Source of the DNA: Thalassotalea piscium
GTDB lineage: Bacteria; Pseudomonadota; Gammaproteobacteria; Enterobacterales; Alteromonadaceae
DNA: 64,000 nucleotides
Direction of reading: 5' to 3'
NCBI RefSeq assembly: GCF_030295935.1
Contig: NZ_AP027362.1
Location: 1,178,001 to 1,242,000, forward strand
This document shows positions 3,951 to 28,163 of the stretch, piece after piece. The notes beneath the pieces were generated by a model. The model worked only from the letters and a program-made list of their open reading frames with translations, made no database searches and was not told where the DNA came from. Position numbers and translations under genes: made by a program. How positions within the stretch are numbered: the stretch's first letter is position 1; every line of letters begins with the position of its first letter.

Positions 3951-3954
3951 AATG

Positions 3955-4109
3955 TGTAGATCTTGGGTTTTCGTGAGAAATCGATCTCAAATAGAATAAC
4001 GCCTGCAAAGAAGTTAACATTTTTTGATTTTCAATTTTGCTTCAGAGAACGCGAGAATCTTGTTATAAACATCATGAATTGCGAGAAATCCATATAATCT
4101 AATAACGCC
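3955..4109. repeat. Left transposon end with three dispersed TnsB-site-like repeats
   Basis: The tip is TGTAGATC. The motif GAGAAATC occurs at 3975 and 4083 and GAGAATCT at 4053. Two of the three repeats continue into AATAACGCC (3995-4003 and 4101-4109), giving two imperfect direct repeats of about 31 bp roughly 107 bp apart. Widely spaced sites resemble the left end of Tn7. Confidence 0.75.
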
Positions 4110-4710: not shown

Positions 4711-6381
4711 TTATCCAAACATATCTAGTTGTTGTTGTGCTTGCGTATTCTCAGAAAAGCAACACTCTAATACAGTATTAAGTTCATCTGATTTTTCGTA
4801 GATAAACGGTGATAATTCAGGCTCAAATTTCTGTTGTTTTAAGTGTTTGATGATTTTGCTAGAACAAGCATTTTTGCTTTCTGCCCAGTGGTCTATACAA
4901 ATATAACTTTCTAAAAACGAGGCAATAGATTCTCCTGTGTAACAACGAATTGTCGGCTTCGTGATGAGTTCATCAATGTAATCAAGCTTACCTAATTGAA
5001 CCACACGGTCTCTTGAAATACCAAGAATACGCTTGGTACGAGGCAATGTTACTGCGCTTAATGATTTTAAAAATATGGTATCAAGAAATTCTGCTAATAC
5101 ATTTTCATTGATGCAAATAGTGTCGATTAGCGTATCTTCTGTTAGGTCAATGTAAATGGGTAATTTGTGCTTGTAAATTTCGACTAATGCTTCATTACAG
5201 TCGAGCGTATATCTATCCAATAAATGTGATAAGTCAGTAAGCTTTATAGTCTCATGCTGCTTAGCTGTATTTTGCTGGCGTGTTTGATTAATAAAGTCTG
5301 ATATATCAATAAAGCTAAAACGGCCTCGCCCCACACTCGTGACGGTTGATATTGACGGTAATTTAAATAAACCACGTGCTAACGACAAATCACACTTCAG
5401 CATGTTAGCAAAACCAGTTTGATCTAAGTGGTTAATCAGTAGTTCATCTAGTGCATGATATCTATTTAACAACGCTGCTTTATTTCTCGCGGTACAAGTA
5501 GTTTTGTTATGACTTGGTAAAGGCTCACTTGAAGTGGCAGTTGTGCCGACATTAGGGTTATAGCCTGAAACTAGCCAAGTGTTGTTCAACTTGCTTTGCA
5601 TCGTATTGAAGGGGTAATAGATAGCACTTTTACCCAGTACAGCGTAATGCTGCCTTACATCACTCATTGAAGAAAGCCATTGTTCGATAACTTGTCGATT
5701 CGTTAACAAGGCATAGGCTAGCTTGCTGATATTTCCCCAATCAGGCACATAGTTAGGTAATTGCTTGATTCCGTGGTGAACAGAGTCATATGGTCTTAAC
5801 GCTCTTATCGTGGCCGTGAATAAATCTTCAACAAAATCTATTCGCTCATGTCTTGAAAGGTTATAAAAGTGCTCTACATGCACAGGTGTTGTTTCTTGTG
5901 TTTGAGCGTCAGCAATCATTTTCCAATTGCGATCACATTTGCTACAACCATAATGCAATAAATCCTCATCCCAGCTAAACGCTTCACCGCAAACACATGT
6001 AGAAATTAATTTCACATTATGCATTGGGCAATGTGTTATCGTATAAAGCTGCCAATCAGCACAAGTGTGTCGTTGAGAGGTCATGCATATAGGGCAGATT
6101 TTTGGTGCTTTGTCCATCAGTGTTCGGTAGCATAGATGGGTTTCACTGGGGCTATAGTTATCATCAAATGGTTGCAAATCGCTTATGCTATCTAGGGTTG
6201 CTGTGTACTGAGCAAAACTTAGTAGACTTTGATCACAACTATTCACCACCAGATGCTTATAATCACGAAACTCGCCTAGCATTTGCTGTACGGTAGAGTA
6301 ATCGTTATTTAATGCTAAACGTACCAAATAGCTGCGGATCGATTCACCAGCAATAGGAGCGGTTTGTGTCATTAAGTGCAT
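4711..6381 (-). CDS. tniQ: TniQ/TnsD family target-selection protein
   Basis: This protein of about 556 aa carries the N-terminal TniQ domain (PIAGESIRSYLVRLALNND) and zinc-binding cysteines and histidines in CPICMTSQRHTCADW, HCPMHN, CVCGEAF and GCSKC (about residues 95-165). A long C-terminal part follows, as in TnsD-type proteins that bind an attachment site and recruit TnsC. The ATG at 6381 is preferred over the in-frame GTG at 6390 because GAGG lies 8 nt upstream. It is the last gene of the tnsA-B-C-tniQ operon, 17 bp after tnsC. It is the only TniQ-family protein in the element. Site-specific targeting is inference from its size. Confidence 0.9.
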   Translation of the reverse strand: MHLMTQTAPIAGESIRSYLVRLALNNDYSTVQQMLGEFRDYKHLVVNSCDQSLLSFAQYTATLDSISDLQPFDDNYSPSETHLCYRTLMDKAPKICPICMTSQRHTCADWQLYTITHCPMHNVKLISTCVCGEAFSWDEDLLHYGCSKCDRNWKMIADAQTQETTPVHVEHFYNLSRHERIDFVEDLFTATIRALRPYDSVHHGIKQLPNYVPDWGNISKLAYALLTNRQVIEQWLSSMSDVRQHYAVLGKSAIYYPFNTMQSKLNNTWLVSGYNPNVGTTATSSEPLPSHNKTTCTARNKAALLNRYHALDELLINHLDQTGFANMLKCDLSLARGLFKLPSISTVTSVGRGRFSFIDISDFINQTRQQNTAKQHETIKLTDLSHLLDRYTLDCNEALVEIYKHKLPIYIDLTEDTLIDTICINENVLAEFLDTIFLKSLSAVTLPRTKRILGISRDRVVQLGKLDYIDELITKPTIRCYTGESIASFLESYICIDHWAESKNACSSKIIKHLKQQKFEPELSPFIYEKSDELNTVLECCFSENTQAQQQLDMFG

Positions 6382-6398
6382 ATCGTTCACCTCTTTGC

Positions 6399-7352
6399 TT
6401 ATTCAACCGAAGCTGCTTCTCTTGCAGCATCTAAACGGTGTGTGATTTCTGCTTCAATAGTCGTCATTGATGCTTTGAAAGGGTTAAATAAAAGCTCACT
6501 TTGAGGCTGAAATTCGATATAAGCTTTTTCTAATACCTTCAAATCAATTAATCGACTATCACCCGCAATTTCAATTGCTTCCTTAAACAGTGGCGTCAAA
6601 TCGCCAAATAATCCTGAGGTGGCGATATGCATACGCTTAAGCATGCTGTCACTGGTTAGGTCTTCTGTGCAACTAAGTACTTCCTGATATTGTGTCATTA
6701 GGTCTTTCCAATGCTCAGAGCCTAATTGGTAAGGCTGAACCTGATACATACGTCGGTTTCTACGTTTTAACTGCTTTTCTTTCTTAAACTTTGATTTACC
6801 CATGAGTAAATCGAGTGAGCTATCAATCCCAACACAAAGGAAAGGGATGCCTGTTTCATCCATCAGTGATTTAATTGCATCGGCAGCATGCTGTGCTGAT
6901 ATAGCTGAAGATTCTCGTGTAAGGTGTTGAGACTCATCAATAATGACTAACTCTGTCTTGGCAGCAATTAATCGATTGGAAAGTCTGGCTTGTAAATCTT
7001 CTTCTCGTCCACTAATTCTTCGCAGCCCCGTCAATTTGCGTAATGACCTAGCGATCAATGAGTAACTTGTCGATTTCTGAATCAGGCTGACGTAGAGAAC
7101 GGGTACAACTTCTTGACCTTCCTCAAAGTATCGAGGGTAGTTGCTGGCATAGTCTTCAACGATGTATGACTTACCAGTACCTGCTTGACCGATTAAATGC
7201 ATACCTTGTACGCATTCGGTATGGTGTGTAGCATGTGATTGGGCGATAGCGTCCTGAATGATTTCCATGTCAGGCGTATCAAAGTGAGTGTCCAAAAAAT
7301 CATTAGTCGCATCATTAATGCGTGGACTTTGCTTCATCAAAAGCTTTGTCAT
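6399..7352 (-). CDS. tnsC: TnsC/TniB-like AAA+ ATPase
   Basis: The AAA+ transposition regulator links the target-selection protein to the transposase. Walker A is GQAGTGKS (about residues 55-62) and Walker B is LVIIDESQHL (about 135-144). The frame is open to 7493, but the ATG at 7352 has a perfect AAGGAGG 5 nt upstream and leaves a 10-bp gap after the tnsB stop codon, so 317 aa is the likely product. A C-terminal tail (NPFKASMTTIEAEITHRL) may contact TnsAB, by analogy with Tn7. Confidence 0.92.
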   Translation of the reverse strand: MTKLLMKQSPRINDATNDFLDTHFDTPDMEIIQDAIAQSHATHHTECVQGMHLIGQAGTGKSYIVEDYASNYPRYFEEGQEVVPVLYVSLIQKSTSYSLIARSLRKLTGLRRISGREEDLQARLSNRLIAAKTELVIIDESQHLTRESSAISAQHAADAIKSLMDETGIPFLCVGIDSSLDLLMGKSKFKKEKQLKRRNRRMYQVQPYQLGSEHWKDLMTQYQEVLSCTEDLTSDSMLKRMHIATSGLFGDLTPLFKEAIEIAGDSRLIDLKVLEKAYIEFQPQSELLFNPFKASMTTIEAEITHRLDAAREAASVE

Positions 7353-7362
7353 GTTTACCTCC

Positions 7363-9249
7363 TTATTTTGATTTTTTTCGTCTAGTGCCAAAACCAGTTG
7401 TTGATTTACGCTCTTCGTCTGTGATGTTGGTAGTGTTGTCTGCAATGTCTTTCTCCATATCTTTAGTAGTGTTATTTGTAATTTCTTCGTCAATAATCAG
7501 TGTGTCTTGCTCGATTAAGGTGCCATTAGCTCTGCGCTTTTTAACGATATTGCCTGCTTGTCTAGGGGTTAGGTGTTTTGGTAATTTTGATTTATCAATG
7601 GTTCGTTCAAATGACTTCAAGTAACTGAAACTTGTGTCGCGAGGAACGTTTTTGACATTCGGCACTTCAATCATGCGTTGACCGAAAACAGCAGTAATAG
7701 CTGAAGCGTCAAAGTCATCTATAAGTACATCAACCGGATAAGAAATATCCTCTGAGCCACCGAGTATGAAGTTCACTTCTTTCATCAAGGCATCACAGTT
7801 AAAGCGCTGACCGCGATGCGGAATGCCATGATTTCTGTTGCAGCGTAATGTTTTAGCATTACCTCTTAGCTTGGTGCGGTCACCAAAGTCAGCCAACGTG
7901 ATCACTTCATCAATGCGAGCATGTTCTGCCCATATTTCATTGGGTGTCCAGTTGTTCATCATGCGGTTTGGTGTGTTGTTGTATTCCGTTTCGATATAGT
8001 CTTCGAACATCACCATGAACTCAGCTACCGTTATTGCAGCGGCTTTTCGAATCGTGGTGTCTGAAACCTTTTTCTTATCACGCTTGTGAAGGTAGCCTTT
8101 TTTACCTTTGAAGAACTTACTACGCCATGTATCGAACATACGCTCGACATGAGGCTTCTCTTCTGGCATACCAGAGCGGCAGTAAGTTACGTCTGAGCCA
8201 ATGGCATTCATGAACTTTTTCGTCATTGCGGCTCTAAAGCCCGGTCCATTGTCGAAAACGTAAGTTAATCCAATACCACCAGCAGGGTACTTGGCGGGAT
8301 CAGCTTTGATGCGCATGGAGTGTGATAGGCAGTGAATAACAGCCGCAGCAGATTCTTTCGGTTTTTCGCCAACGACTACTGTATACCCTAGACATGTGCG
8401 AGTTTTAACATCCATCGCAGCAATAATGCCTATTTTCCCTGCATAGGTGCCATCTTCCTTTAGCAAGCCCATGTTCACTTCAAGGCCATCACACTCGATT
8501 AAATCAAGTACATTTTGGACGTTGTAAGTCTTAGATGCTTCACGGTTTTCGCGATCTGCGAATTTTTTACCGTATCTGGCTAAATCTCTCTCGTATTTAG
8601 GCCAAGAATTAATGCGACGTTCAAATGTTGATAGGCTAGGTATGTCATATCCTTTGAACATTTTACCTTTGCGCTTAAAAGCTTTAGTGAACATGTCATG
8701 TGCGTAGGCCATTGTCGGTTCGCCTAGCTGCATGTAATAGCGACTGATCATTTTGTCCATGAATTCAAGCACGCTATCAGGGAAACGCCACTCTGTTTGG
8801 CTGTACTCTGATTTCACGACTTGCAATGCCATGTCTTTACCGTCTTCAAGCCATCGCTTGTACCACTTGTAAACTGTCTTAACTGATGTTTTTACTGGGT
8901 GGTCCTCTTTAATCTCTTCATAGACTTCATCTACTAGCTCTTGAGTCAGTCCATCAGTAGGATTTAGTGTTTTAAACTCAAAAAATTTCTCGCAATAAGC
9001 CGTGCGTCTGTCACACTCGTGTTGCTCGTCGTCTTTTAGGTGAACTACACAGCGCATTTCATAGGGCTTATCAATGACGGTGATAAGTTTTTCATTGATT
9101 GCTTGAAGCAGCTCGTAGGGTTTGTACAGATCATCTGGCTTGCTTTTATAGCCGATAAGTACACGTTCATTATCGACATATAAAATTGTGCCGTGGCAGC
9201 CTGATACTTTTAAATCAAGGCCAACTTCTAATAACAACCCACTATTCAC
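7363..9249 (-). CDS. tnsB: TnsB/TniA-like DDE transposase
   Basis: This 628-aa protein has a retroviral-integrase-type catalytic core with D in LIECDGLEV (about 254), D in YVFDNGPGF (about 333) and E in KPHVERMFDTW (about 369). It also has an N-terminal DNA-binding region and a Mu-transposase-type C-terminal beta domain (GRGQRFNCDALMKEV-like segment). It performs 3' end cleavage and strand transfer. It starts at GTG 9249, overlapping the tnsA stop codon by 1 nt, so translation is probably coupled. Length is near that of Tn7 TnsB (702 aa). Confidence 0.93.
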   Translation of the reverse strand: MNSGLLLEVGLDLKVSGCHGTILYVDNERVLIGYKSKPDDLYKPYELLQAINEKLITVIDKPYEMRCVVHLKDDEQHECDRRTAYCEKFFEFKTLNPTDGLTQELVDEVYEEIKEDHPVKTSVKTVYKWYKRWLEDGKDMALQVVKSEYSQTEWRFPDSVLEFMDKMISRYYMQLGEPTMAYAHDMFTKAFKRKGKMFKGYDIPSLSTFERRINSWPKYERDLARYGKKFADRENREASKTYNVQNVLDLIECDGLEVNMGLLKEDGTYAGKIGIIAAMDVKTRTCLGYTVVVGEKPKESAAAVIHCLSHSMRIKADPAKYPAGGIGLTYVFDNGPGFRAAMTKKFMNAIGSDVTYCRSGMPEEKPHVERMFDTWRSKFFKGKKGYLHKRDKKKVSDTTIRKAAAITVAEFMVMFEDYIETEYNNTPNRMMNNWTPNEIWAEHARIDEVITLADFGDRTKLRGNAKTLRCNRNHGIPHRGQRFNCDALMKEVNFILGGSEDISYPVDVLIDDFDASAITAVFGQRMIEVPNVKNVPRDTSFSYLKSFERTIDKSKLPKHLTPRQAGNIVKKRRANGTLIEQDTLIIDEEITNNTTKDMEKDIADNTTNITDEERKSTTGFGTRRKKSK

Positions 9250-9878
9250 TATGCTTCCTCCACGAATGTTAATTGTGTTTCGGTTGTTAATGGCTTTTGA
9301 TAGTCAAAACGAAACACTTGATGTCCTAGTAGGGCTAACGCGTGTTTTGCCTGAAAATCAATTGATTCAATGTAGGTTTTCAGTGAGCCAAAAGTTGGGG
9401 TCTTGCCAATGGCATCGGTAAGACTTGGGACACTAATTTTAGAAATGTCTAATCGACGATAATGGTGGATGCGTTTGAGGTTTTCGGTGGTCTCACCAGC
9501 ATAAACGGTTTCATCGGTGATATAGGATAAATTCAAAATTTGGGCCTCATGAAAACACATACGCAGGTGATTGAATTGTTCAATCGCTTTATCAGATTTG
9601 GTAAAAACAACGGGTTTAGTTTCTTTAATTCTTTCTCCTTTCAGTGTTTCAAGGCTTAAATCTGGGGTGTAACTTCGCTCCTTACCAGATGCGTCGATAT
9701 AGGCGTATTGTTTAGGTTGTGATTTAAAAGAAATGACCTCAGGATCGTATTCATAAAACCGCTGAGCATTACGCTCTAGTTGCGACTGTCCCCAGATATA
9801 CTCGCCACCATTGAGGTAAGATTTAAACAGGGAGATTTGGCTCCCTTTGCTAAAATTATTTCTGTATTTTTTTCTCAT
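9249..9878 (-). CDS. tnsA: TnsA-like endonuclease
   Basis: TnsA makes the 5' cuts at transposon ends, giving cut-and-paste transposition together with TnsB. Catalytic residues of the restriction-endonuclease fold appear as E in QSQLERNA (about 35), D in YTPDLSL (about 73) and K in IKETKPVVF (about 88). The ATG at 9878 (209 aa) has AAGGA upstream; the TTG at 9911 is an alternative. It is first in the tnsABC-tniQ operon. A complete catalytic set supports cut-and-paste rather than replicative movement. Confidence 0.9.
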   Translation of the reverse strand: MRKKYRNNFSKGSQISLFKSYLNGGEYIWGQSQLERNAQRFYEYDPEVISFKSQPKQYAYIDASGKERSYTPDLSLETLKGERIKETKPVVFTKSDKAIEQFNHLRMCFHEAQILNLSYITDETVYAGETTENLKRIHHYRRLDISKISVPSLTDAIGKTPTFGSLKTYIESIDFQAKHALALLGHQVFRFDYQKPLTTETQLTFVEEA

Positions 9879-9992
9879 CGTTCTGTTCCTTTCATTAAAA
9901 TTTGGGCGCAAAAGTCCTACTGGCGGTAATCGCGCTAAACATTAAATTTTTAAAATTTTGGGATGTGTAAAGAGCAATAGTCCACAAGTTAG

Positions 9993-10196
9993 CTAGAAGC
10001 GAAACTCAGTCGGTCGCTCGGTATTGTCGATAAAAGACGATATTTTTGAGGATGATTCATCCAGCAAGGGATTGGAGTTGGATAAGTGAATAGACTCACC
10101 TTTCCTAATGTGGCTTTGGATAACCACTTTGTTGTTTTCGGGCATAAAACAACTACGTACTTCTGTTTCATTGATGCAATGAATATTCGGTGTCAA
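9993..10196 (-). CDS. Small unknown protein upstream of tnsA
   Basis: A 67-aa frame starts at TTG 10196 with an excellent GAGGAGG 8 nt upstream. It points the same way as tnsA and ends 114 bp before the tnsA start. The sequence has no hydrophobic segment and I recognise no family. The strong ribosome-binding site is the main support. It could be a small operon leader or regulator of the transposition genes; that is speculation. Confidence 0.45.
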   Translation of the reverse strand: MTPNIHCINETEVRSCFMPENNKVVIQSHIRKGESIHLSNSNPLLDESSSKISSFIDNTERPTEFRF

Positions 10197-10346
10197 ATAA
10201 CTAGCCTCCTCAGTCAGTTCGGTGTGTTGACGGGATGAAGCTTAGCGCCAAAAAATAGTGACTGCAAGTGCTAAAATTGGTGCAACGATAACCGCGTTGC
10301 GTTATACTTAAAGAAAGGCTAACTGCTATTCCATACTATTTCTGAT
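10197..10346. promoter_or_regulatory. Divergent promoter region between the tns operon and the hsdS/hsdM-like pair
   Basis: These 150 bp separate two outward-reading operons, so they must carry both promoters or one promoter and a regulatory site. I see no TnsB-type GCGAGAAA motif here, which argues against a transposon end. Exact promoters were not resolved. Confidence 0.4.
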
Positions 10347-10940
10347 ATGTACAACACAGTAAAAACATTAAAAATAATTGCCCAGAACGGAAAATTTTTT
10401 CGAGGAAAGATCAAGGAGGACAAAAATGGCGAAAATTTCGTCATTCAGTTGCGCGATATTGTAAAAAACGAGCGAGGTGACTACCTCGATTTAAAGAATT
10501 TATTGCGTACCAATATCTCAACTAAAGGTCATATCGAGTACTTAAAGGCGGGAGATGTACTTATTACCGTAAAGGGAGCGAAAAAGTATGCGTTTCATTT
10601 AGAGAAAGTCCCGTCTAAAACCGTTGTTTCTCAACATTTTCTCATTTTACGCTCACCCGATCCCAAAATTATATTACCCGAATTTATAGAGTACGCGGTT
10701 AATTCATCAAGATGTCAGAATTGGTTTGCGCGTAAATGCCCCGGTAGCTATCAAAGTACACTCAGTAGAGAAACGCTAGAAAGGCTGCCTTTGCCTGTAC
10801 TACCACCAGAAGAGCAACAAAAGATAGTGAATTTGATACGCGAAACGCGTGCGGAAAAGAAACTCTTGCTCGATTTAATTGACAATAGAGAGCAACAGCT
10901 AAAAGCGCTTGCCAACAAACTGATTAATACGGACTACTAA
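10347..10940 (+). CDS. Single-TRD HsdS-like specificity protein
   Basis: This 197-aa protein is about half the length of a normal type I specificity subunit. It has one target-recognition domain starting almost at the N-terminus (LKIIAQNGKFFRGKI), the typical end-of-TRD motif (CPGSYQSTLSRETLERLPLP) and one central helix (EEQQKIVNLIRETRAEKKLL) of the HsdS coiled coil. Half-size HsdS proteins are known to work as dimers, recognising palindromic bipartite sites. It ends 1 bp before the HsdM-like gene, so the two are surely co-expressed; the S-before-M order is the reverse of most type I operons. No clear ribosome-binding site precedes the ATG. Confidence 0.8.
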   Translation: MYNTVKTLKIIAQNGKFFRGKIKEDKNGENFVIQLRDIVKNERGDYLDLKNLLRTNISTKGHIEYLKAGDVLITVKGAKKYAFHLEKVPSKTVVSQHFLILRSPDPKIILPEFIEYAVNSSRCQNWFARKCPGSYQSTLSRETLERLPLPVLPPEEQQKIVNLIRETRAEKKLLLDLIDNREQQLKALANKLINTDY

Positions 10941-10941
10941 T

Positions 10942-12423
10942 ATGTTAGAGAAAATCATCATAGATATCGTTCAGAACTATAAGTTTACTGATATTAAATC
11001 GTTTGTTGGTGATACTGAAAAACGTGACTACTTTTTGTTCTTTTTATTCTGTCGGTTAGCCGATTTATCAACGGGCGATGTGAAGTTTCAGTTAGACAAG
11101 CTCTATCACGAGACAGATATAACAGCATTCATTCAACAGCTTGAGATAATTTCAGAGCAAGTATCACCTACCAGTGCCATTAAAAAAAGCGTTGATGAAT
11201 TACTTAATAACGAGTTTAAGCTGTCACGAAAAGCCTTACCGCAAGGTGTTTTCTCTTCGTTATCAGAAGCTGAGCAAAATCATTTTGATAGAAAGTTGGT
11301 TCTGAAATTTGCCGATATCACTAGAAAAGTTGATGACCCGCTACTTATAAAACTACTACCTGAAATCAAACAATCACTAGTTGAAGATAACCTTTATATC
11401 ATCAGTGAAGTATTTAGTATTGAATCACTTAATAACGTGGATTTATTGACGACATACGATGCGGTAGAGGTCTATAGCAGGGTATTAATGCGTTTACAGG
11501 CTGTTAGTGATCCACTTCAGTTTGAAGAAGGTTTTAACTATCAGGAAATCCCCTCTGACTTTATCGATTTAATCATGGAAGCTGGCGATATCGGCAGTGT
11601 TGATAGTATCTACGCCCCATATGAAGTGACTACTGAGCAAAGTCTTTATCTAGCATTGGAATACCCAGATAAAGAAATTCAAATAGAAACTGTCACTGAA
11701 ACACCGCGCCATACTTATCGCAAATTTGCTTTAGCACAAGCGACAAATATTAATACTTCGCACACCTATTGTTTATCAAACAATCAAATTGCCACTGAGC
11801 GATACGATATGTCGATGTGTTTGCTTCAGCCTAAAATCGTTACCGACAGGAAGACGGGAAAAATAGCGGAACAAGAAGAGCAGGAAAATGTTACATACAA
11901 AGAACATTTGTACATTAGCCATATGCTGGAAATGCTCAACAAGAGCGGTAAAGCCTATGTTGTTATGGGAAAAGGGCCACTTTTTAGAAAAGGTGATATT
12001 AAAGCTCGACAGCAGCTTATTGAGGATAACGTGGTAGACGCAGTTATTACACTACCCGCAAAAATCATGAATTTTTGTCCACTACCTATGATCCTGTTGG
12101 TGCTAAATAAAGCCAAAAAGACCAATGATGTGTTGTTTATCAACGCCACAGAATTTCAAAAAGAAGAGTCTGGACGAACCGTGCTAGATGATATTGAGAG
12201 ATTGGCAGAAGAATACCGTTCAAGGCCAGCACAAACACCACTTGGTTTTACTGTATCCAATCAAGAAGTCGCGGCTAGTAAATATTCATTAAATGGCCTT
12301 AACTACGTTTCAACGGAAGAGGCTGAGCAATATAACTTGGCGGAGTTAACAGTTTCGAGAAAGCAGACAATGAATGCGCTGATGGATAAACAAGAAATAA
12401 TTAACCAGTTATTCGATGTTTAA
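10942..12423 (+). CDS. HsdM-like protein lacking methyltransferase catalytic motifs
   Basis: This 493-aa protein follows the type I N6-adenine methyltransferase plan: a helical N-terminal domain, a Rossmann-like region and a well-preserved C-terminal part (GPLFRKGDIKARQQLIEDN, VDAVITLPAKIMNFCPLPMI). Where HsdM has the SAM-binding motif IYDPxxGSGG, this has SIYAPYEVTT (about residue 222). Where HsdM has the catalytic NPPF, this has CLLQPK (about residue 293). Both are lost while the frame stays open, so this is a pseudo-enzyme, not a pseudogene. No hsdR lies nearby. It probably forms a DNA-binding complex with the HsdS-like protein. The role is unknown. Confidence 0.8.
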   Translation: MLEKIIIDIVQNYKFTDIKSFVGDTEKRDYFLFFLFCRLADLSTGDVKFQLDKLYHETDITAFIQQLEIISEQVSPTSAIKKSVDELLNNEFKLSRKALPQGVFSSLSEAEQNHFDRKLVLKFADITRKVDDPLLIKLLPEIKQSLVEDNLYIISEVFSIESLNNVDLLTTYDAVEVYSRVLMRLQAVSDPLQFEEGFNYQEIPSDFIDLIMEAGDIGSVDSIYAPYEVTTEQSLYLALEYPDKEIQIETVTETPRHTYRKFALAQATNINTSHTYCLSNNQIATERYDMSMCLLQPKIVTDRKTGKIAEQEEQENVTYKEHLYISHMLEMLNKSGKAYVVMGKGPLFRKGDIKARQQLIEDNVVDAVITLPAKIMNFCPLPMILLVLNKAKKTNDVLFINATEFQKEESGRTVLDDIERLAEEYRSRPAQTPLGFTVSNQEVAASKYSLNGLNYVSTEEAEQYNLAELTVSRKQTMNALMDKQEIINQLFDV

Positions 12424-12557: not shown

Positions 12558-12872
12558 ATGAATACTGTTATCTCAGATTGGTTTACTGTTGCAGTTATGC
12601 AAGAAAATGAGCTATTGGGCGAAGTTCTGTGGGGCATTGTAGTTGATGACTCTACGTTTCGTTTTGCTAAAAATGATTATGTTTGTTCTTCCAAGATAAC
12701 AAAGGTATTTACGAGTAATCAGCTTATTCAAACGGCCTCAGACAGTATTTATCAAACGATTGGAAAAGGCCGCAAAGCAATTATTGATTCAGATGATTTT
12801 GAGTTGTTGAGAAGTGGATTTAGTCCATTGCAAATAAAGTTATTGAATAGGGAATTATCAGTACTTCACTGA
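12558..12872 (+). CDS. Uncharacterised 104-aa protein (transposon cargo)
   Basis: The ATG at 12558 follows GGGGAGTCAGG, a good ribosome-binding site. The protein has a short beta-rich N-terminal half (WFTVAVMQENELLGEVLWGIVVDD) and a helical end. The DDSTFRFAKNDYVCSSKI pattern recalls small DUF proteins common in accessory regions, but I cannot assign a family. It has its own 134-bp upstream region. Confidence 0.65.
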   Translation: MNTVISDWFTVAVMQENELLGEVLWGIVVDDSTFRFAKNDYVCSSKITKVFTSNQLIQTASDSIYQTIGKGRKAIIDSDDFELLRSGFSPLQIKLLNRELSVLH

Positions 12873-13050
12873 AAAAGTTTGTGTACGCTGTATCTGGAAA
12901 GCTATAAATTGTAGTGAATGGTTAATATATTGTTAATATGATTAAAAAATTTTGAGCAATAACAAGTAATATCAATATTTTTCTTGTATTTTTATGCAGC
13001 TATGGCATAAAAACTAGATAGTAATTTTGTGCGTTGATAAGGAATCACGT

Positions 13051-13785
13051 TTGAAAGATAAGGAAAAAATAGCACTTTTTATCGATGCTGATAATGCTCC
13101 TGCCAGTAAAATTGATGTCATTCTCTCCGAACTAGCTCGTTATGGTGTGGTTAATATTCGTAAAGCATATGGTAACTGGAAAAGTCATTGTTTAAAACAA
13201 TGGGAAGATGTCCTTCATGAATACGCTATTCAGCCTATTCAACAATTTGATTTAACTAAAGGTAAAAATGCAACTGATATTGCTCTGGTGATTGATGTGA
13301 TGGATACCTTATATACTAAAGATATCGATACGGTTTGTTTAGTTTCTTCTGATTGTGATTTTACGCCTCTTGTCACCCGCGTTTTAGCCGATGGAAAGTT
13401 TGTAATTGGTTTTGGTGAGCGCAAAGCTCCAGCAGCCTTCGTGAATAGCTGTTCTAAATTTCTTTTTCTTGATGACGCTGTTAGTGATGATAAGCCTAAG
13501 CAAGTTCATAGCCCAAGCATTAAAAGTGATACCAAATTAATGAACTTACTAAGACAAGCAATTTCAGCCGTTGAAGATGATGATGGTTGGGCAAGGTTAG
13601 GCCCAGTAGGAACACACATCGCAAACCATGCATCATTTGATCAGCGGAATTATGGGTTTAAAAAATTAAGCGAACTCTTTGCCTCAATAGACCTCTTTGA
13701 AATGAGGAAAACTAATGGTTCAGTGTTTTGGGTCAAAGATAAGAAAAACGCTAAATCAAAGCAGCAACATAATAGCCAAATTTAA
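13051..13785 (+). CDS. NYN-domain RNase-like protein with OST-HTH/LOTUS domain
   Basis: The N-terminal NYN (PIN-like) domain shows the acidic residues IALFIDADNAP, KNATDIALVIDVMD and SSDCDFTPLV, the expected metal-binding set of a nuclease. The C-terminal part (LLRQAISAVEDDDGWARLGPV..LSELFASIDLFEM) fits an OST-HTH/LOTUS RNA-binding domain. Such LabA/MARF1-like proteins are widespread; an RNA-cleaving role is inference. The start is taken as TTG 13051, with AAGGA 7 nt upstream; TTG 13027 is possible. It stands just before the large helicase gene, on the same strand. Confidence 0.85.
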   Translation: MKDKEKIALFIDADNAPASKIDVILSELARYGVVNIRKAYGNWKSHCLKQWEDVLHEYAIQPIQQFDLTKGKNATDIALVIDVMDTLYTKDIDTVCLVSSDCDFTPLVTRVLADGKFVIGFGERKAPAAFVNSCSKFLFLDDAVSDDKPKQVHSPSIKSDTKLMNLLRQAISAVEDDDGWARLGPVGTHIANHASFDQRNYGFKKLSELFASIDLFEMRKTNGSVFWVKDKKNAKSKQQHNSQI

Positions 13786-13854
13786 TCAAAAAAATAACAA
13801 TGGTGTAGTTTTAAGTTATTTTATTTAAACATTTCACGACTGAAGGGAGAATAT

Positions 13855-16800
13855 ATGGAAAAGTTCACAATAAATGCAGGCGTTGCACCAGTATATTCAC
13901 TCGCGTTTCAGCAAAATCAGTACCCTTTAATCTCATCGCTAGAATTAAAGGCTATTAAAACCGATCCTTTAAATAATGAAGAACATAATATTTATCGGGA
14001 TTTAAAAGTTGAACTTACTGCTGAAAACGAAGTATTTAGCAGTTTAACTTGGCATGTTGATTCTATCGAAGCAGGACATACTCAACTTTTACCTAAACAG
14101 TTACCCAAAATATCTTACGAGTACTTAAATAAACTAACTGAACAGGTTTCAATTAACCTTACGTTTAAAGTGTTTTTAGGTGAAGAGTTAGTTAAAACAG
14201 AAACTGTCTCGATTGACATTCTTCCTAAGAATTTTTGGGGCGGTGAAGAAAGAATGGCTGAATTGTTAGCCGCTTTTTCCTGCCCTAATACTGCATATGT
14301 AACGGAAATCGTTAAAAAGGCTTCAGAACAATTAAAGCAGGCTGGGCATGGCTCATCCTTGGATGGTTATCAATCTGAAACTCGTGAAAGACCATATTTG
14401 ATGGCTGCCGCAATTTGGAATGTTATATCAGCCTCTAATGTTTCTTATGTAACACCACCGTCAAGTTTTGCTTATTCGGGGCAAAGAATTCGATTACCAG
14501 ACGAAATTAAATCTACAGGAATTGCAGCGTGTTTAGATTTATCGTTATTGTTTTCAGCTTGTTTGGAACATATAGGTCTGAATTCTATTATAGCGTTAAC
14601 GCAAGGTCATGCTTGCTGTGGTTTATGGTTGATTGATGAGTGTTTCCCAATACTAACAAATGACGATCCAATGGACATAAGGAAGCGTATTGCTTCAAAA
14701 GACATAGTACTTTTTGAAACAACCTTGGCGACTTCCGATAGTCCCATTACGTTTGGTCAAGCTTCAGAGCACGCAGAACAACTAATTGCAGAAGACAGTG
14801 AAGACGAATTTGTATATATAATAGATCTTAAACAAGCCAGAAAAAGGCAAATAAAGCCTATACCGACAATTGCGGAGCAACAAAATAATGTAGCAAATGT
14901 TGAAGAAAACCAACCATTAGAGCTTCCTGTTGCACCAACATTACCACCAGTTCGTCCAGAAGAACTACCAATTGATGACACACCTGAAGGAAGGGTCCAG
15001 CAGTGGCAGAGAAAACTTCTCGATTTAACAAAAAGAAATCGATTGTTAAATTTATCTGCAAATGCTGTATCAGTAAAAATTTACTGTCCTGATTTAGGTG
15101 CCCTTGAAGATGAATTGGCTTCGGGTCAGACGTTTAAGTTTACTACTCCTGAAGAGTCACCGTTATCAGAAGGAAATAGAGATAAAGAGATCTTTAAGTT
15201 TAAAATTGGTGATGATTTACAAAAAGAATTCGCGCTAGAGCAGCTTCGCAGTAAAATATTAATTGCTAATGACTCGCCTAAAAAGCTTGAGAGAAGTCTT
15301 CTAACCTTATTTCGCAAATCTAAAAATGATTTGGAAGAAGGTGGTTCCAATACACTGTTTTTAGCTATAGGTATGCTTAAATGGAAGGAAACACCTGATA
15401 GTGAGAGAACATACCAAGCTCCATTAATTTTATTACCCGCCCAACTTATTAGAGCCAGTGCCAGATCTAAAATCAAAATTAAGCAGCTTGAAGGTGAAGA
15501 ACCCATTTTTAATTCAACGTTGATTGAATTTTTACAAAATGACTTCGAAATTGATTTGTCTCTATTCAAAGAGCATTTGCCTACAGATGACAGTGGTGTA
15601 GATGTTGAAAGAATATGGGCTACTGTTAGGGACAAGGTTAAAGATATTCAAGGGTTTGAAGTAAAAGAAGAGCTTGTTCTTAGCACTTTTTCTTTCGCCA
15701 AATATTTAATGTGGAAAGACTTAAAAGACAGAGTTGATGTTTTAAAAACAAACCCATTTGTTGAACATTTAATTGAAACACCACAAAAATCGTATCAGCA
15801 GGAAAGTCACTTTTATGAGCAAAGTGATATTGATGACAAGTTCAAACCATCAGAAGCATATATTCCTTTAAATGCAGATAGCTCTCAAATGGTTGCAATA
15901 GCTGCTTCTGAGAAATCTCAAGATTTTGTTCTAGAAGGACCTCCGGGAACAGGTAAGTCAGAAACCATCGCTAACATTATTAGCCATAACTTAGCTAAAG
16001 GACGTAAAGTATTATTTGTAGCTGAAAAAATGGCTGCGCTTAATGTTGTTTATAGCCGATTACAGAAAATTGGTTTATCCCACTTGTGTTTGGAATTACA
16101 TAGTAATAAAGCGAACAAAAAAGCCATCCTCGATCAATTAAAGAAAGCTTGGACAACAAGAGAAAGTGCTACTAGCTCTGAGTGGAAGAACAACGCAGAA
16201 AAACTTTTCGAATTAAAACAGCACTTAAATTTATATGTTAGCGAACTGCATAAGGAATCAAGACTAGGAATTTCTCCTAGGCAGGCTATTGCTAGAGCCA
16301 GCAAATACCAAGATAGAACAAGGTTTAAATTGAACTGGTCTTTATCTTTAGATACTGCACCTGTGTTAAGTAAATCTGATGTTGAAGCAACTTTAGAATT
16401 AGCAAAAAGAGTAGGTCTTAACTTTGCTGATGTCGAACATATTGACAGAGCAAGCCTTGAGTTATTAAAGCAAGATTCATGGTCTAATAGTTGGCAAAGT
16501 GACTTCTTATCAACATGTAATAAATTAAGTAAAGATTTAGAGGCAATTAAACTCGACTATTCAAAACTTGAAGAAGTATTAGGCTTAAATGAGTTGGGAG
16601 AAAACAATTCCACACTTGAAGAGCTAGGGGCTTTAGCCAACCTGCTTATTGAGCAAGCTAGTAACCTTACTAGTTTTATTTTTACTTCAGAGGCAAAAGA
16701 TAAATTGGAGCTACTTGAAAAGTTATGTGGCTCTAAACAACAGCTTGAAAATCAAATTTCCAAATGCAATTTATCCTTCAAGATAGAAGATGTAAGTCAA

Positions 16801-19605
16801 CTTCCTATTAAGCGTTGGATTGAAGAACTGAAAATCGCAGAGTCCAAAATATGGCCCTTAAAGTGGTTTTCTGTTCGAAAATTGAACAAGTTGGTAGTTG
16901 GTAATGGTGTTACTGGTGATGTGTCTGTAGGTGAATTGGAAGAATTAGATAAAGTAAGGTCTATTGCACAAGATATATCCGAAATTAGTGGTACTTTTGA
17001 AAAAGACAAGATTTGGAAAGGTTGGGATACTGCACAAAGTGAACTTCAAAGTCATCTAGAATATTCAAAAAATGTTTACCTACAAACACGTAAAGTTGCT
17101 GGCAGGTTAGAAAATCCAGCCGAGTTTATTGCTAAACTAAGGCAAATGATTGTAGAAAATCATGAGTTTTTTGCTTCTTCTAATTTATATGGGGCTTGTG
17201 AAAAGTTTGTTACAACATTGCCTAATTATAAGAATTCTATCAGAGAATTTATAAATTCAGGCGGGGAAGTTGATGAAGCGGTAACTCTGCATAATTTGAG
17301 GGAGTCATTATCTCAATTAAGTACGCTAGGTCCTAAATTAAAATCTTGGTGTGAGTGGGTTGAAAGTAAAAAAGAAGCTAATGAGAAAGGGCTAGATGAT
17401 TTAGTTATTGCATTGGAACAAGGATTAATTGATTCAACGGATACTGAAGAGCAAACTAAAAATGCGTTATATATTTGGCTTTGTCCTATCTTAATTGATA
17501 ATTCCGAGGTTCTACGCACATTCAAAACGTCTAGACATGAAGATTTGATTTCTCAGTTTAGAGAGTTAGATACCCTTGTTGCAGATACGACCTCTGAGTA
17601 CATTGCAAGCATCGCAGCATCTGCAAGCCCAGATCCCAATTCGCCCCAAGCTCCTGCTGAATTTGGCGTGTTATCTAGGCAGTTTAATAAAAAATCCAAT
17701 CATATGCCTACCCGACAACTCGTAACTGAAATGGGAGAGTCGTTACTTTATTTAACACCATGTTTTATGATGTCACCATTATCGGTGGCTCAATTCCTTC
17801 CTGCTAATTTCAGTTCGTTTGATTTAGTAATCTTTGATGAAGCCTCACAAATAACGGTATGGGATGCTGTTGGCTCTATTGCCAGAGGTAAGAACGTGAT
17901 AATTGTTGGTGACCCAAAACAAATGCCACCAACCAACTTTTTCTCTAAAAGTGGAAATGATGATTCATCAGACGAAGAGGACTTGGAAAGTATTTTAGAT
18001 CAAGCATTATCAGCGCGATTACCTCACCATAGATTAACTGGTCACTATAGAAGTAAACATGAAAGCCTAATTGCTTTCTCTAACAGCCACTATTATGAAA
18101 ATTCCTTGGTTACCTTTCCAAGTGCAGAAACAAAAGCTAGTGCAGTAACTATGCACAGGGTTGATGGTTTATATTCAAAGGGTAAGAACCGGAACAATAT
18201 AATAGAAGCCAATGCTGTTGCAGATTTCATTGTTACTAGCTTACAGCAGAAAAATCAATCGTTAACGTTTGGTATCGTTACGTTGAATAGCGAGCAGCAA
18301 AGATGCATAGAAGATGCTCTTGATGATCGAAGAAGAAAACATCCTGCTATTGAAAAATTCTTCCAAGGCAGTAAAAAATACGATCCAATTTTTGTGAAAA
18401 ATTTAGAGTCTGTTCAAGGTGATGAGCGCGATGTCATCATATTGAGCTTAGGTTATGGTCCAACAGAGCCTCAAGCCAAAACTATGAGTATGAACTTTGG
18501 CCCCCTAAATAAACAGGGAGGAGAGCGCAGGCTAAATGTAGCTATTACACGAGCCACAACAGAGGTTCATGTGTTTTCTAGCTTTGGCTCATCGATGATT
18601 GACCTTAGCCGTACAAGTGCTCTAGCGGTTCAACACTTAAAATATTTCCTAGAATTTGCGGAGAAAGGCCCTGTTGCTTTACCTGAAACAGCCAATGCAG
18701 ATTTTGGCGTAGATCAGTTTGACAGCTACTTTGAAGAAGCGGTTGCTTATGCACTTAGAGCGAAAGGCTGGAAAGTGCAAACACAAGTAGGTGTTGGAAA
18801 ATTTAGGATTGATATGGGGGTAGTTCATCCTGATAAACCCGGTCAATTTTTAGCGGGTATTGAATGTGATGGAGCAACATACCATAGTTCTCCAGCAGCA
18901 CGAGATAGGGACAGAGTAAGACATATCATTCTTGAGAATTTGGGATGGGAACTGTTGCGTATTTGGTCAACCGATTACTTTATAGATCCAAACGAAATTA
19001 TAGAAAAAGTGCATGTTCAATTGACTGAATTGTTAACTAAAGATAAAGAAGCCACTGATATTGTTGTTGAAGAGGAAGAAGACCTTTTTGAAGAAGATGA
19101 TGAGGAAGATGGCTCGTTAGATCCGTCAAAGTATTTTGATGAAAGTTACAAGGCAGTTTTAGAAAATGCTGCCAAAGAAATATTAACTGCAAAAAGTGGT
19201 ATTACTTTGCACGAATTAGCATCTGATATCGGCTACATGCATGATATGGCTAGGACAACTAAGAAGCAGTTAGATCATATCGAATCGGTAATCAGCTCTT
19301 GGGCTGGGATAGTGAATCATTCTGAAACGGATAAAACAGTATGGCTATCACCAGATGACTGTAAAGAAATAATTGAATGGAGAGGAGTTGATGCTTTTGG
19401 TACTCCGAGGGAGTGGAATTCTATATCGTTACCTGAAAGACTAGGGCTAGCCCAAAGAGCGCTTGCAGAAGCCCCTGATGATCCTGTTGATTTTATTTTT
19501 AATGAGTTTAGGTTGAGTCGCAGAACCAAGACGACAACTGAAAAATTCGAATCTTGGGTATCTAACTATAGAGGATTTGAATCTATAGATACTATTAATG
19601 TTTAA
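13855..19605 (+). CDS. Giant helicase-nuclease (DUF4011, SF1 helicase, Vsr-like nuclease, DUF3320), defence type
   Basis: Domains in this 1916-aa protein are, in order: a beta-rich N-terminal region; a transglutaminase-like segment with Cys in AACLDLSLLFSACLEHIGL and His in QGHACCGLW (about 223-255); a DUF4011 start at WQRKLLDLTKRNRLLNL (about 384); SF1 (Upf1-like) helicase motifs GPPGTGKSE (about 697), LVIFDEASQ (about 1326), GDPKQMPP (about 1353), VQGDERDVI (about 1522) and NVAITRA (about 1560); a Vsr/MTES-type nuclease with FRIDMGVV and GIECDGATYH (about 1650-1676); an acidic linker; and a C-terminal DUF3320-like domain. Single large proteins of this build are found in defence islands. An anti-phage function is inferred from family and context. 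RBS GGGAG precedes the ATG. Confidence 0.88.
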   Translation: MEKFTINAGVAPVYSLAFQQNQYPLISSLELKAIKTDPLNNEEHNIYRDLKVELTAENEVFSSLTWHVDSIEAGHTQLLPKQLPKISYEYLNKLTEQVSINLTFKVFLGEELVKTETVSIDILPKNFWGGEERMAELLAAFSCPNTAYVTEIVKKASEQLKQAGHGSSLDGYQSETRERPYLMAAAIWNVISASNVSYVTPPSSFAYSGQRIRLPDEIKSTGIAACLDLSLLFSACLEHIGLNSIIALTQGHACCGLWLIDECFPILTNDDPMDIRKRIASKDIVLFETTLATSDSPITFGQASEHAEQLIAEDSEDEFVYIIDLKQARKRQIKPIPTIAEQQNNVANVEENQPLELPVAPTLPPVRPEELPIDDTPEGRVQQWQRKLLDLTKRNRLLNLSANAVSVKIYCPDLGALEDELASGQTFKFTTPEESPLSEGNRDKEIFKFKIGDDLQKEFALEQLRSKILIANDSPKKLERSLLTLFRKSKNDLEEGGSNTLFLAIGMLKWKETPDSERTYQAPLILLPAQLIRASARSKIKIKQLEGEEPIFNSTLIEFLQNDFEIDLSLFKEHLPTDDSGVDVERIWATVRDKVKDIQGFEVKEELVLSTFSFAKYLMWKDLKDRVDVLKTNPFVEHLIETPQKSYQQESHFYEQSDIDDKFKPSEAYIPLNADSSQMVAIAASEKSQDFVLEGPPGTGKSETIANIISHNLAKGRKVLFVAEKMAALNVVYSRLQKIGLSHLCLELHSNKANKKAILDQLKKAWTTRESATSSEWKNNAEKLFELKQHLNLYVSELHKESRLGISPRQAIARASKYQDRTRFKLNWSLSLDTAPVLSKSDVEATLELAKRVGLNFADVEHIDRASLELLKQDSWSNSWQSDFLSTCNKLSKDLEAIKLDYSKLEEVLGLNELGENNSTLEELGALANLLIEQASNLTSFIFTSEAKDKLELLEKLCGSKQQLENQISKCNLSFKIEDVSQLPIKRWIEELKIAESKIWPLKWFSVRKLNKLVVGNGVTGDVSVGELEELDKVRSIAQDISEISGTFEKDKIWKGWDTAQSELQSHLEYSKNVYLQTRKVAGRLENPAEFIAKLRQMIVENHEFFASSNLYGACEKFVTTLPNYKNSIREFINSGGEVDEAVTLHNLRESLSQLSTLGPKLKSWCEWVESKKEANEKGLDDLVIALEQGLIDSTDTEEQTKNALYIWLCPILIDNSEVLRTFKTSRHEDLISQFRELDTLVADTTSEYIASIAASASPDPNSPQAPAEFGVLSRQFNKKSNHMPTRQLVTEMGESLLYLTPCFMMSPLSVAQFLPANFSSFDLVIFDEASQITVWDAVGSIARGKNVIIVGDPKQMPPTNFFSKSGNDDSSDEEDLESILDQALSARLPHHRLTGHYRSKHESLIAFSNSHYYENSLVTFPSAETKASAVTMHRVDGLYSKGKNRNNIIEANAVADFIVTSLQQKNQSLTFGIVTLNSEQQRCIEDALDDRRRKHPAIEKFFQGSKKYDPIFVKNLESVQGDERDVIILSLGYGPTEPQAKTMSMNFGPLNKQGGERRLNVAITRATTEVHVFSSFGSSMIDLSRTSALAVQHLKYFLEFAEKGPVALPETANADFGVDQFDSYFEEAVAYALRAKGWKVQTQVGVGKFRIDMGVVHPDKPGQFLAGIECDGATYHSSPAARDRDRVRHIILENLGWELLRIWSTDYFIDPNEIIEKVHVQLTELLTKDKEATDIVVEEEEDLFEEDDEEDGSLDPSKYFDESYKAVLENAAKEILTAKSGITLHELASDIGYMHDMARTTKKQLDHIESVISSWAGIVNHSETDKTVWLSPDDCKEIIEWRGVDAFGTPREWNSISLPERLGLAQRALAEAPDDPVDFIFNEFRLSRRTKTTTEKFESWVSNYRGFESIDTINV

Positions 19606-26762: not shown

Positions 26763-26997
26763 GTTTATATTCATAATCATTGAGTTTATTTTAAGCTGTT
26801 TATTAGCTTGTATGCTGGCTTTGTTGTAGGTAATTTATTTATGGGCGAGTGTCCTTGTTATTTTTGTTATTTTGGCTGACTTTCATATGATATTTTTTAA
26901 CTTTAACCCTTCGACCTAACGGTCATAAGTAGATTTAATAACTATTTCTCTTTTTCTATTTTTTTGCTACAGTGATAAAAGTTAAATCAGTATCGAT

Positions 26998-27041
26998 GTG
27001 AGGACGACCTCACCGCTCTATTTTTTCAGGGGACGACCCCT
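26998..27041 (+). promoter_or_regulatory. Guanidine-II (mini-ykkC) riboswitch
   Basis: Two hairpins with identical ACGA loops: GTGAGG-ACGA-CCTCAC (26998-27013) and AGGGG-ACGA-CCCCT (27028-27041), 14 nt apart. This is the defining structure of the guanidine-II riboswitch, which turns on guanidine exporters. It lies 20 bp before an SMR gene, close enough to the start codon for translational control. Confidence 0.93.
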
Positions 27042-27061
27042 AAATTTAATAGAGTGTTTAT

Positions 27062-27376
27062 ATGTATTGGTTAATCTTATTTCTCGCAGGAATTTTAGAA
27101 GCTGGCTGGTTAGTTGGTATTCAAAAATCAGAATCGTTTACAAATATCCCCTATGTAATATTCGCTGTTTTTTCAATGTCGCTTAGTCTGGTTTTGTTTT
27201 CAATAGCATTAAAAGACATTCCTGTTAGCCAAGCATATCTCGTTTGGTTAGCTATAGGTGCGTCATCAATTTCGATCATAAACCATTATTTTTTTGACCA
27301 ACCACTTTCAATTCAACAATTGTTTTGCTTTTGTTTGATCTTTATTGGTGTGGCTGGTTTAAAAATGTCTAACTAA
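27062..27376 (+). CDS. gdx: SMR-family guanidinium exporter (Gdx/SugE type)
   Basis: This 104-aa, four-helix small multidrug resistance protein has the essential membrane glutamate in GILEAGW (Glu13 region) and the usual helix 3-4 pattern (VSQAYLVWLAIGASSISII). Such proteins act as dual-topology dimers exchanging guanidinium for protons in the inner membrane. The guanidine-II riboswitch directly upstream makes guanidinium the probable substrate. A single gene is present, fitting a homodimer. The ATG at 27062 follows the riboswitch closely. Confidence 0.9.
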   Translation: MYWLILFLAGILEAGWLVGIQKSESFTNIPYVIFAVFSMSLSLVLFSIALKDIPVSQAYLVWLAIGASSISIINHYFFDQPLSIQQLFCFCLIFIGVAGLKMSN

Positions 27377-27815: not shown

Positions 27816-28163
27816 GCATAAGGCGAACTGGTTGTTGAAAGGCATTAAATACCACTGAAATATCTACTTTATCAGAAAACTGCCTTTCAAACTTAAAACC
27901 CTTATGACTGCCATGGTGGCTTAGTTGTCTAGCAGGATAAAGGTAGCTCTACGTTTTTTTAACACTGCAAGCCGCACCAAAAGCTATTGATGTTAATGTC
28001 CGCTTTCGTATCTTTGCTGTCTCTTTTGGATCGTTGGCGGGTTATACAAATTCTTTCAGGTGTAACTTAAATGTTAAATTCTATCAGCGGGTGACTTATG
28101 TCTCATTATTTGTGACACACCACATTCACTTTTTTATAAAGGAGCCAAAGTAGACACTACACT

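Follow-up and report, generated by a model that had tools for sequence, protein, structure and literature searches.

A catalytically dead type I methyltransferase pair divergent from tnsA as a probable regulator of Tn7-like elements

The window, a stretch of 64,000 nucleotides from the genome of Thalassotalea piscium, contains a Tn7-like element in which a dead type I methyltransferase subunit (HsdM) and a half-size specificity subunit (HsdS) are encoded divergently from tnsA. We propose that a dead M-S complex, derived from a type I restriction-modification (R-M) methyltransferase, probably regulates its own promoter and that of tnsA. Computation reveals a pair with dead motifs that is placed exclusively beside tns genes, interrupted palindromes in the control regions and, by one informative comparison, a dependence of these palindromes on HsdS subtype.

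Results

The pair and its element

The first gene of the pair (10347..10940, plus strand) encodes a single-TRD HsdS-like protein of 197 aa, and the second (10942..12423, plus strand) an HsdM-like protein of 493 aa; both frames are uninterrupted. Alignment of the latter with active HsdM confirms the motif losses described in an earlier note on this DNA. At the position of motif I, which binds SAM (11614..11634, plus strand), APYEVTT replaces DPxxGSG (DPCCGSGG to APYEVTTE in the alignment), and at the position of the catalytic motif IV (NPPF; 11821..11835, plus strand), SNPPF has become LLQPK. At the sequence level, the Pfam N6_Mtase match (2.3e-25) covers residues 314-462 only, as do the PDB sequence matches, to EcoR124I M and others. 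An AlphaFold model of the full-length protein (pLDDT 77.6, pTM 0.76) resembles type I M subunits from residue 1 to residue 462 (best matches by Foldseek and VIA; Z 25.5 for 7vs4_B, with 377 residues aligned and rmsd 5.4), and hence the N-terminal side is likewise HsdM-like. The view that the protein resembles HsdM on both sides of its active site is thus borne out, by sequence for the C-terminal side and by the model for the N-terminal one.

The partner had been described as a half-size HsdS with a target-recognition domain (TRD), and this too holds. It matches Methylase_S with 26.1 bits (cut-off 22) and has one TRD followed by one long C-terminal helix (residues 154-195), lacking the two TRDs per chain of type I HsdS. 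Its model matches single halves of S subunits, and the nearest solved structure is Esub1 (PDB 8vsr/8vsq, TM 0.71-0.75). No HsdR was found among the proteins neighbouring the pair, in agreement with the earlier note: the pair's large neighbour (13855-19605) encodes a DUF4011/MTES_1575 protein of 1916 aa (PADLOC PDC-S37). From sequence and models, then, the window pair is a dead type I M with a half-size S.

The tns operon is complete (tnsABC-tniQ), runs leftward and is divergent from the pair. All four genes lie on the minus strand: tnsA at 9249..9911 (Tn7_TnsA-like_N, 6.3e-05), tnsB at 7363..9249 (628 aa; assigned by weak rve and HTH_Tnp_Mu_2 matches and by homologous tns operons), tnsC, a TniB-like AAA ATPase, at 6399..7493 (TniB, 1.7e-21), and a single large TniQ/TnsD of 559 aa at 4711..6390 (TniQ, 9.5e-09). 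Between tnsA and hsdS lies a divergent control region of 435 bp (9912..10346), not of 150 bp as had been given before.

Tn7-like transposons have TGT...ACA ends and duplicate 5 bp of their target. A second element of the kind studied here, L031, lies in the window's own genome (G000:C1:186671-209561, about 23 kb); its ends are TGTGGA, with 4-bp flank matches when two genomes are compared. The right end of the window element (28100..28124, minus-strand reading TGTGGTGTGTCACAAATAATGAGA) matches that of L031. Its left end is probably, but tentatively, placed at 3953..3975 (TGTAGATCTTGGG...), by eye against the L031 left end TGTGGATCTTCG; local alignment against the L031 element did not pick it out. 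Comparison with relatives did not recover an empty site for the window element. Rfam gave no RNA match at the insertion site.

Several other genes of the element deserve mention. An NYN-LOTUS protein precedes the DUF4011/MTES_1575 protein, and the two (13027-19605) are candidate defence cargo. Near the right end, still inside the element, a Guanidine-II riboswitch precedes the gene of a small membrane protein resembling an SMR exporter (26996-27376). A DUF6957-like small protein recurs in elements with the dead pair (window 12558-12872, L034:8987-9424 and, by eye only, L146:14659-15018).

Recurrence within the family

We searched 397 genomes of the window's bacterial family with an HsdS profile and read the neighbourhoods of the matches. 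HsdS of the Tn7 type is divergent from tnsA or its operon at 11 loci: the window, L031, L145/L065, L032, L033, L034, L146, L147, L148, L149 and L150. A dead HsdM accompanies it at nine of the ten loci beyond the window (two copies being nearly identical), while L149 has lost HsdM and kept HsdS. Motifs I and IV are missing from all nine distinct Tn7-associated HsdM proteins, and the gap between tnsA and hsdS ranges from 84 to 679 bp. The other profile matches were mostly half-HsdS genes ahead of an active hsdM (DPxxGS[GA], NPPF); a few, L177, L178, L180 and L181, stood out as odd.

Trees that include R-M homologues (16 for M, 14 for S) unite the Tn7-associated proteins in a single clade in each case, with support 100 for M and 95 for S. 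Same-clade homologues with intact motifs, which by the earlier note would speak against its reading, are absent from the tree, every HsdM of the separate Tn7 clade being dead. The tie to Tn7-like elements that it had suggested is conserved, with the HsdS clade adjoining tns genes at 11 of 11 loci. Away from tns genes, the dead-pair clade was not found in the genomes and plasmids searched. The plasmids, queried with two HsdM and one HsdS, yielded only relatives of ordinary type I R-M systems; nine matches in viral contigs were restricted to the C-terminal region of HsdM or reached slightly beyond it; a sample of 369 genomes from the class gave no further case outside the family; and a sample from the order contributed search hits only.

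The reverse search, from TnsA, gives 40 matches in 60 sampled genomes of the family, spread over 25 of them. Three are dead-pair loci. At the other loci that were read, the slot is occupied by active type I R-M systems, by XRE regulators, by a cold-shock-like protein or by the attachment gene itself; the dead pair is therefore one occupant among several.

L031 has a near-identical copy, L145, in Colwellia chukchiensis (G657:C13). Small insertions aside, the two are 99.7-100% identical over shared segments, and both are inserted about 180 bp past the engB stop codon (engB being identified by reading the sequence). Since near-identical elements sit at one place in two genera, the transfer between genera was recent.

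Exchange between backbones and conservation

The histories of the pair and of the transposase differ. L033 and L034 are joined by the TnsB tree at 100/100, a grouping that the M data reject (p-AU 0.006), whereas L032 and L146 are joined by M (98/98) and by S (96/99), a grouping that TnsB rejects (p-AU 0.014); the clades for these tests were named after the trees had been seen, and some branches are long. Judged from these trees, the pair has been transferred between tns backbones that are unrelated to each other, and each time it came to occupy the same divergent slot.

Among the Tn7 loci, median identity is 32% for S and 27% for M, and 15-19% for TnsA, TnsB, TnsC and TniQ. R-M loci show the reverse order within the pair, with 89% for M vs 40% for half-S. 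Between most elements, M is 22-32% identical. Frames of M and S are uninterrupted in ten elements at 22-62% protein identity, and amino-acid-changing differences amount to 0.23-0.35. Silent sites are saturated, so dN/dS is uninformative. The proposal that selection keeps the dead M stands.

Palindromes in the control regions

The window control region contains an interrupted palindrome, GCAACG-N7-CGTTGC (10282..10300), which is the predicted site of the pair. It lies 46 bp before hsdS and directly before TATACT. At the equivalent place, the paralogous L031 has GAAACG-N7-CGTTGC, with one mismatch. The window site has no twin in its region. Across the 3.9-Mb host genome, its exact sequence has this single occurrence, inside the control region of the element. 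A scan of this region for consensus promoters gave nothing above chance, and no convincing promoter around the palindrome.

Comparable palindromes, mostly with a 7-bp gap between half-sites of 5 bp, occur in the control regions of other elements: CCCAC-N7-GTGGG twice each in L147 and L148 and once in L149, CTCAC-N7-GTGAG twice each in L146 and L032, and CATTC-N8-GAATG twice in L033. Exact twin sites are present in five of ten regions, vs 0.06 expected from shuffles. In L032, L146, L147 and L148, the twin sites flank a divergent -35-like pair, TTGATC-N11-TGTCAA. No clear matching site was seen in the control regions of L034 and L150, and no further exact copies of the predicted sites elsewhere in the loci examined (4-20 kb).

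The half-site appears to follow HsdS. L146 and L032 have a common half-site with HsdS 55% identical and TnsB only 26%, and the half-site of L146 differs from that of L148 and L149 although the TnsB of L148 (48% identical) and of L149 is closer to that of L146. This suggests, mainly from one discordant comparison, that the half-site tracks the HsdS subtype and not the transposase.

Half-HsdS genes in R-M operons

Half-HsdS genes also open many type I R-M operons, in which an active hsdM follows (L151-L176, L189-L194). Twin near-palindromes lie upstream of them in nine of 31 regions (0.38 expected), and in L156, L164, L166 and L190 two GCAYC-type sites, 61-68 bp apart, surround a promoter-like TTGAC... 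sequence. These genes look as if they were autoregulators with twin operators. Such autoregulators would be a type I counterpart to the C proteins of type II systems, of which we found no description in the literature searched.

Two of the odd loci carry a second degenerate M (EPPM/EPPF, GACGLAR) with a half-HsdS (L180:9497-11373, L181:9670-11540), directly upstream of an active hsdM and with twin TTCGT-N9-ACGAA sites. In another locus (L164:2324-19533), a Tn7-like element with two TniQ genes carries, divergently from tnsA, a half-HsdS, an active hsdM, an hsdS and what is probably an hsdR. It is plausible that L164 represents a possible ancestral state of the dead pair and gives a picture of the module's arrival.

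Discussion

Together, these observations suggest a model in which two half-HsdS chains dimerise via their long C-terminal helices and a dead HsdM holds each of them, giving an M2S2 complex. With a dead HsdM on each half, the HsdS dimer would therefore read an interrupted palindrome. The complex would bind the palindromes of the divergent hsdS-tnsA control region and thereby control, most likely repress, both its own expression and the tnsABC-tniQ operon. Such repression would keep transposition low and self-limiting. Formation of the complex, its binding and the sign of the regulation are what we infer, and L149 bears on the composition: since it keeps HsdS and a site with HsdM lost, either M may be dispensable or L149 may be decaying. 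Position alone proves little, because other genes, active R-M systems among them, are also found in the slot next to tnsA.

Among the functions offered earlier, regulation of transposition gained ground, since the divergent promoter region contains palindromes of the predicted type and their half-site tracks the HsdS subtype, while a second target selector gained no support. In the latter explanation, dead M-S on bipartite target sites would recruit TnsC with TniQ as the link, playing in protein form the part of Cascade or TnsF. A dedicated clade that is always beside tnsA and is exchanged between backbones would fit it, as would the elements of the second backbone, which have a small TniQ and a TnsD-like TniQ; a small TniQ beside a TnsD-like one is a hallmark of an additional selector (PMC10293859). 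However, the sites predicted for the pair belong to the control region of the element itself; the 4-20 kb examined per locus contain no further exact copy, and the window's site has one copy in the whole genome. The pair is also found in elements with a single TniQ, the window with its one large TniQ among them, and L031 and L145 lie at the identical place downstream of engB, as expected from targeting of the TnsD type. The small TniQ, moreover, is broken in two of three readable cases and intact in L149, which lacks M. The broken copies have one in-frame stop (L032:16394-17293) and a frameshift (L148:14955-15870), with an intact dead pair in both elements; a partnership of the pair with the small TniQ was set aside on these grounds. 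We consider a target selector unlikely. It is slightly less likely still that dead M-S has two jobs, in which it would control tnsA and in addition either guide the transpososome to bipartite sites of incoming DNA or sense host methylation at the palindrome, such that the element jumps only under certain restriction states. If true, it would be a target-selection or entry-sensing system made from a restriction enzyme.

The pair could also act outside transposition. As an anti-restriction decoy, dead M and half-S would join the type I subunits of a host and block restriction during entry into it. This would suit a mobile element with a recent transfer between genera (99.7-100% identity over shared segments) and an M whose C-terminal part is best conserved, but it leaves the cognate palindromes, the divergence from tnsA and the conserved TRD unexplained, and 22-32% identity between most elements is little for a mimic of host subunits; we regard it as improbable. 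To much the same degree we doubt that the pair is cargo, one more pair of defence genes without a tie to transposition. Active type I R-M systems do occupy the corresponding slot of other Tn7-like elements (L164; also L296 and L301), yet the pair comprises neither a nuclease nor a working methylase, searches of genomes and plasmids turned up its clade nowhere but next to tnsA, it is always first in the slot, and its cognate sites are at the tnsA promoter region. Least probable of all, and already disfavoured, is an R-M remnant decaying on its way out. Every catalytic motif is lost, M is already gone from L149, and L164 offers a plausible active ancestor in the corresponding slot. Against this stand the intact frames in ten elements at 22-62% protein identity, with silent sites saturated and amino-acid-changing differences of 0.23-0.35, and the identical loss throughout one clade that has been exchanged between backbones.

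If the dead pair is indeed a regulator, an R-M methylase has become a dedicated component of a transposon, with its sequence reading alone being used. Regulation by the pair would also offer a testable answer to the question of self-limited transposition in these Tn7-like elements. We found no description of R-M parts used as a DNA-binding switch at a transposase promoter in the open-access literature.

Comparison with known systems

The TnsF protein of Tn6022-like elements (PMC10293859) is, like the pair, a Tn7-like accessory derived from an enzyme and devoid of an active site. It stems from a tyrosine recombinase, shares its operon with a small TniQ and has the comM site as its target (PMC10293859). 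Unlike TnsF, the M-S pair is divergent from tnsA, and its predicted sites fall within the promoter region. The survey of Tn7 selectors in which TnsF is described does not mention restriction or Hsd proteins (PMC10293859); it would miss the pair because only genes in an operon with tniQ were examined.

RptR (PMC12255303) resembles the proposed half-HsdS regulators in being the first gene of a type I R-M operon, in having multiple operators and in repressing its own promoter. It is, however, a 79-aa helical dimer that acts on TAGCTA, whereas half-HsdS is unrelated in fold; the window HsdS differs from RptR in size, fold and site. Esub1 (8vsr/8vsq, with the phage protein Prx) is, like the window HsdS, a stand-alone chain of about 200 aa.

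With the type I M2S core (HsdM/HsdS), the window pair has in common the M fold over almost its full length, the TRD and helix of S, and the adjacency of the two genes. It differs from this core in lacking motifs I and IV, in lacking HsdR and in having one TRD instead of two. The core acts on asymmetric genomic sites, whereas the predicted sites of the pair are palindromic and lie in a promoter region. NgoAV, truncations of EcoDXXI and EcoR124I, the 'type 1 1/2' enzyme M.AhdI (PMC3874165) and M-half-S constructs (PMC6158711) all have one TRD per S chain, as has the pair. Homodimers of single-TRD HsdS read interrupted palindromes, as described for the EcoDXXI and EcoR124I truncations and NgoAV (PMC3874165), and so do M-half-S constructs (PMC6158711). 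The half-HsdS homodimers and the window pair agree in M and S as separate chains and would agree in an interrupted palindromic target, predicted in our case. The homodimer systems methylate their targets, whereas the M of the window lacks the catalytic motifs.
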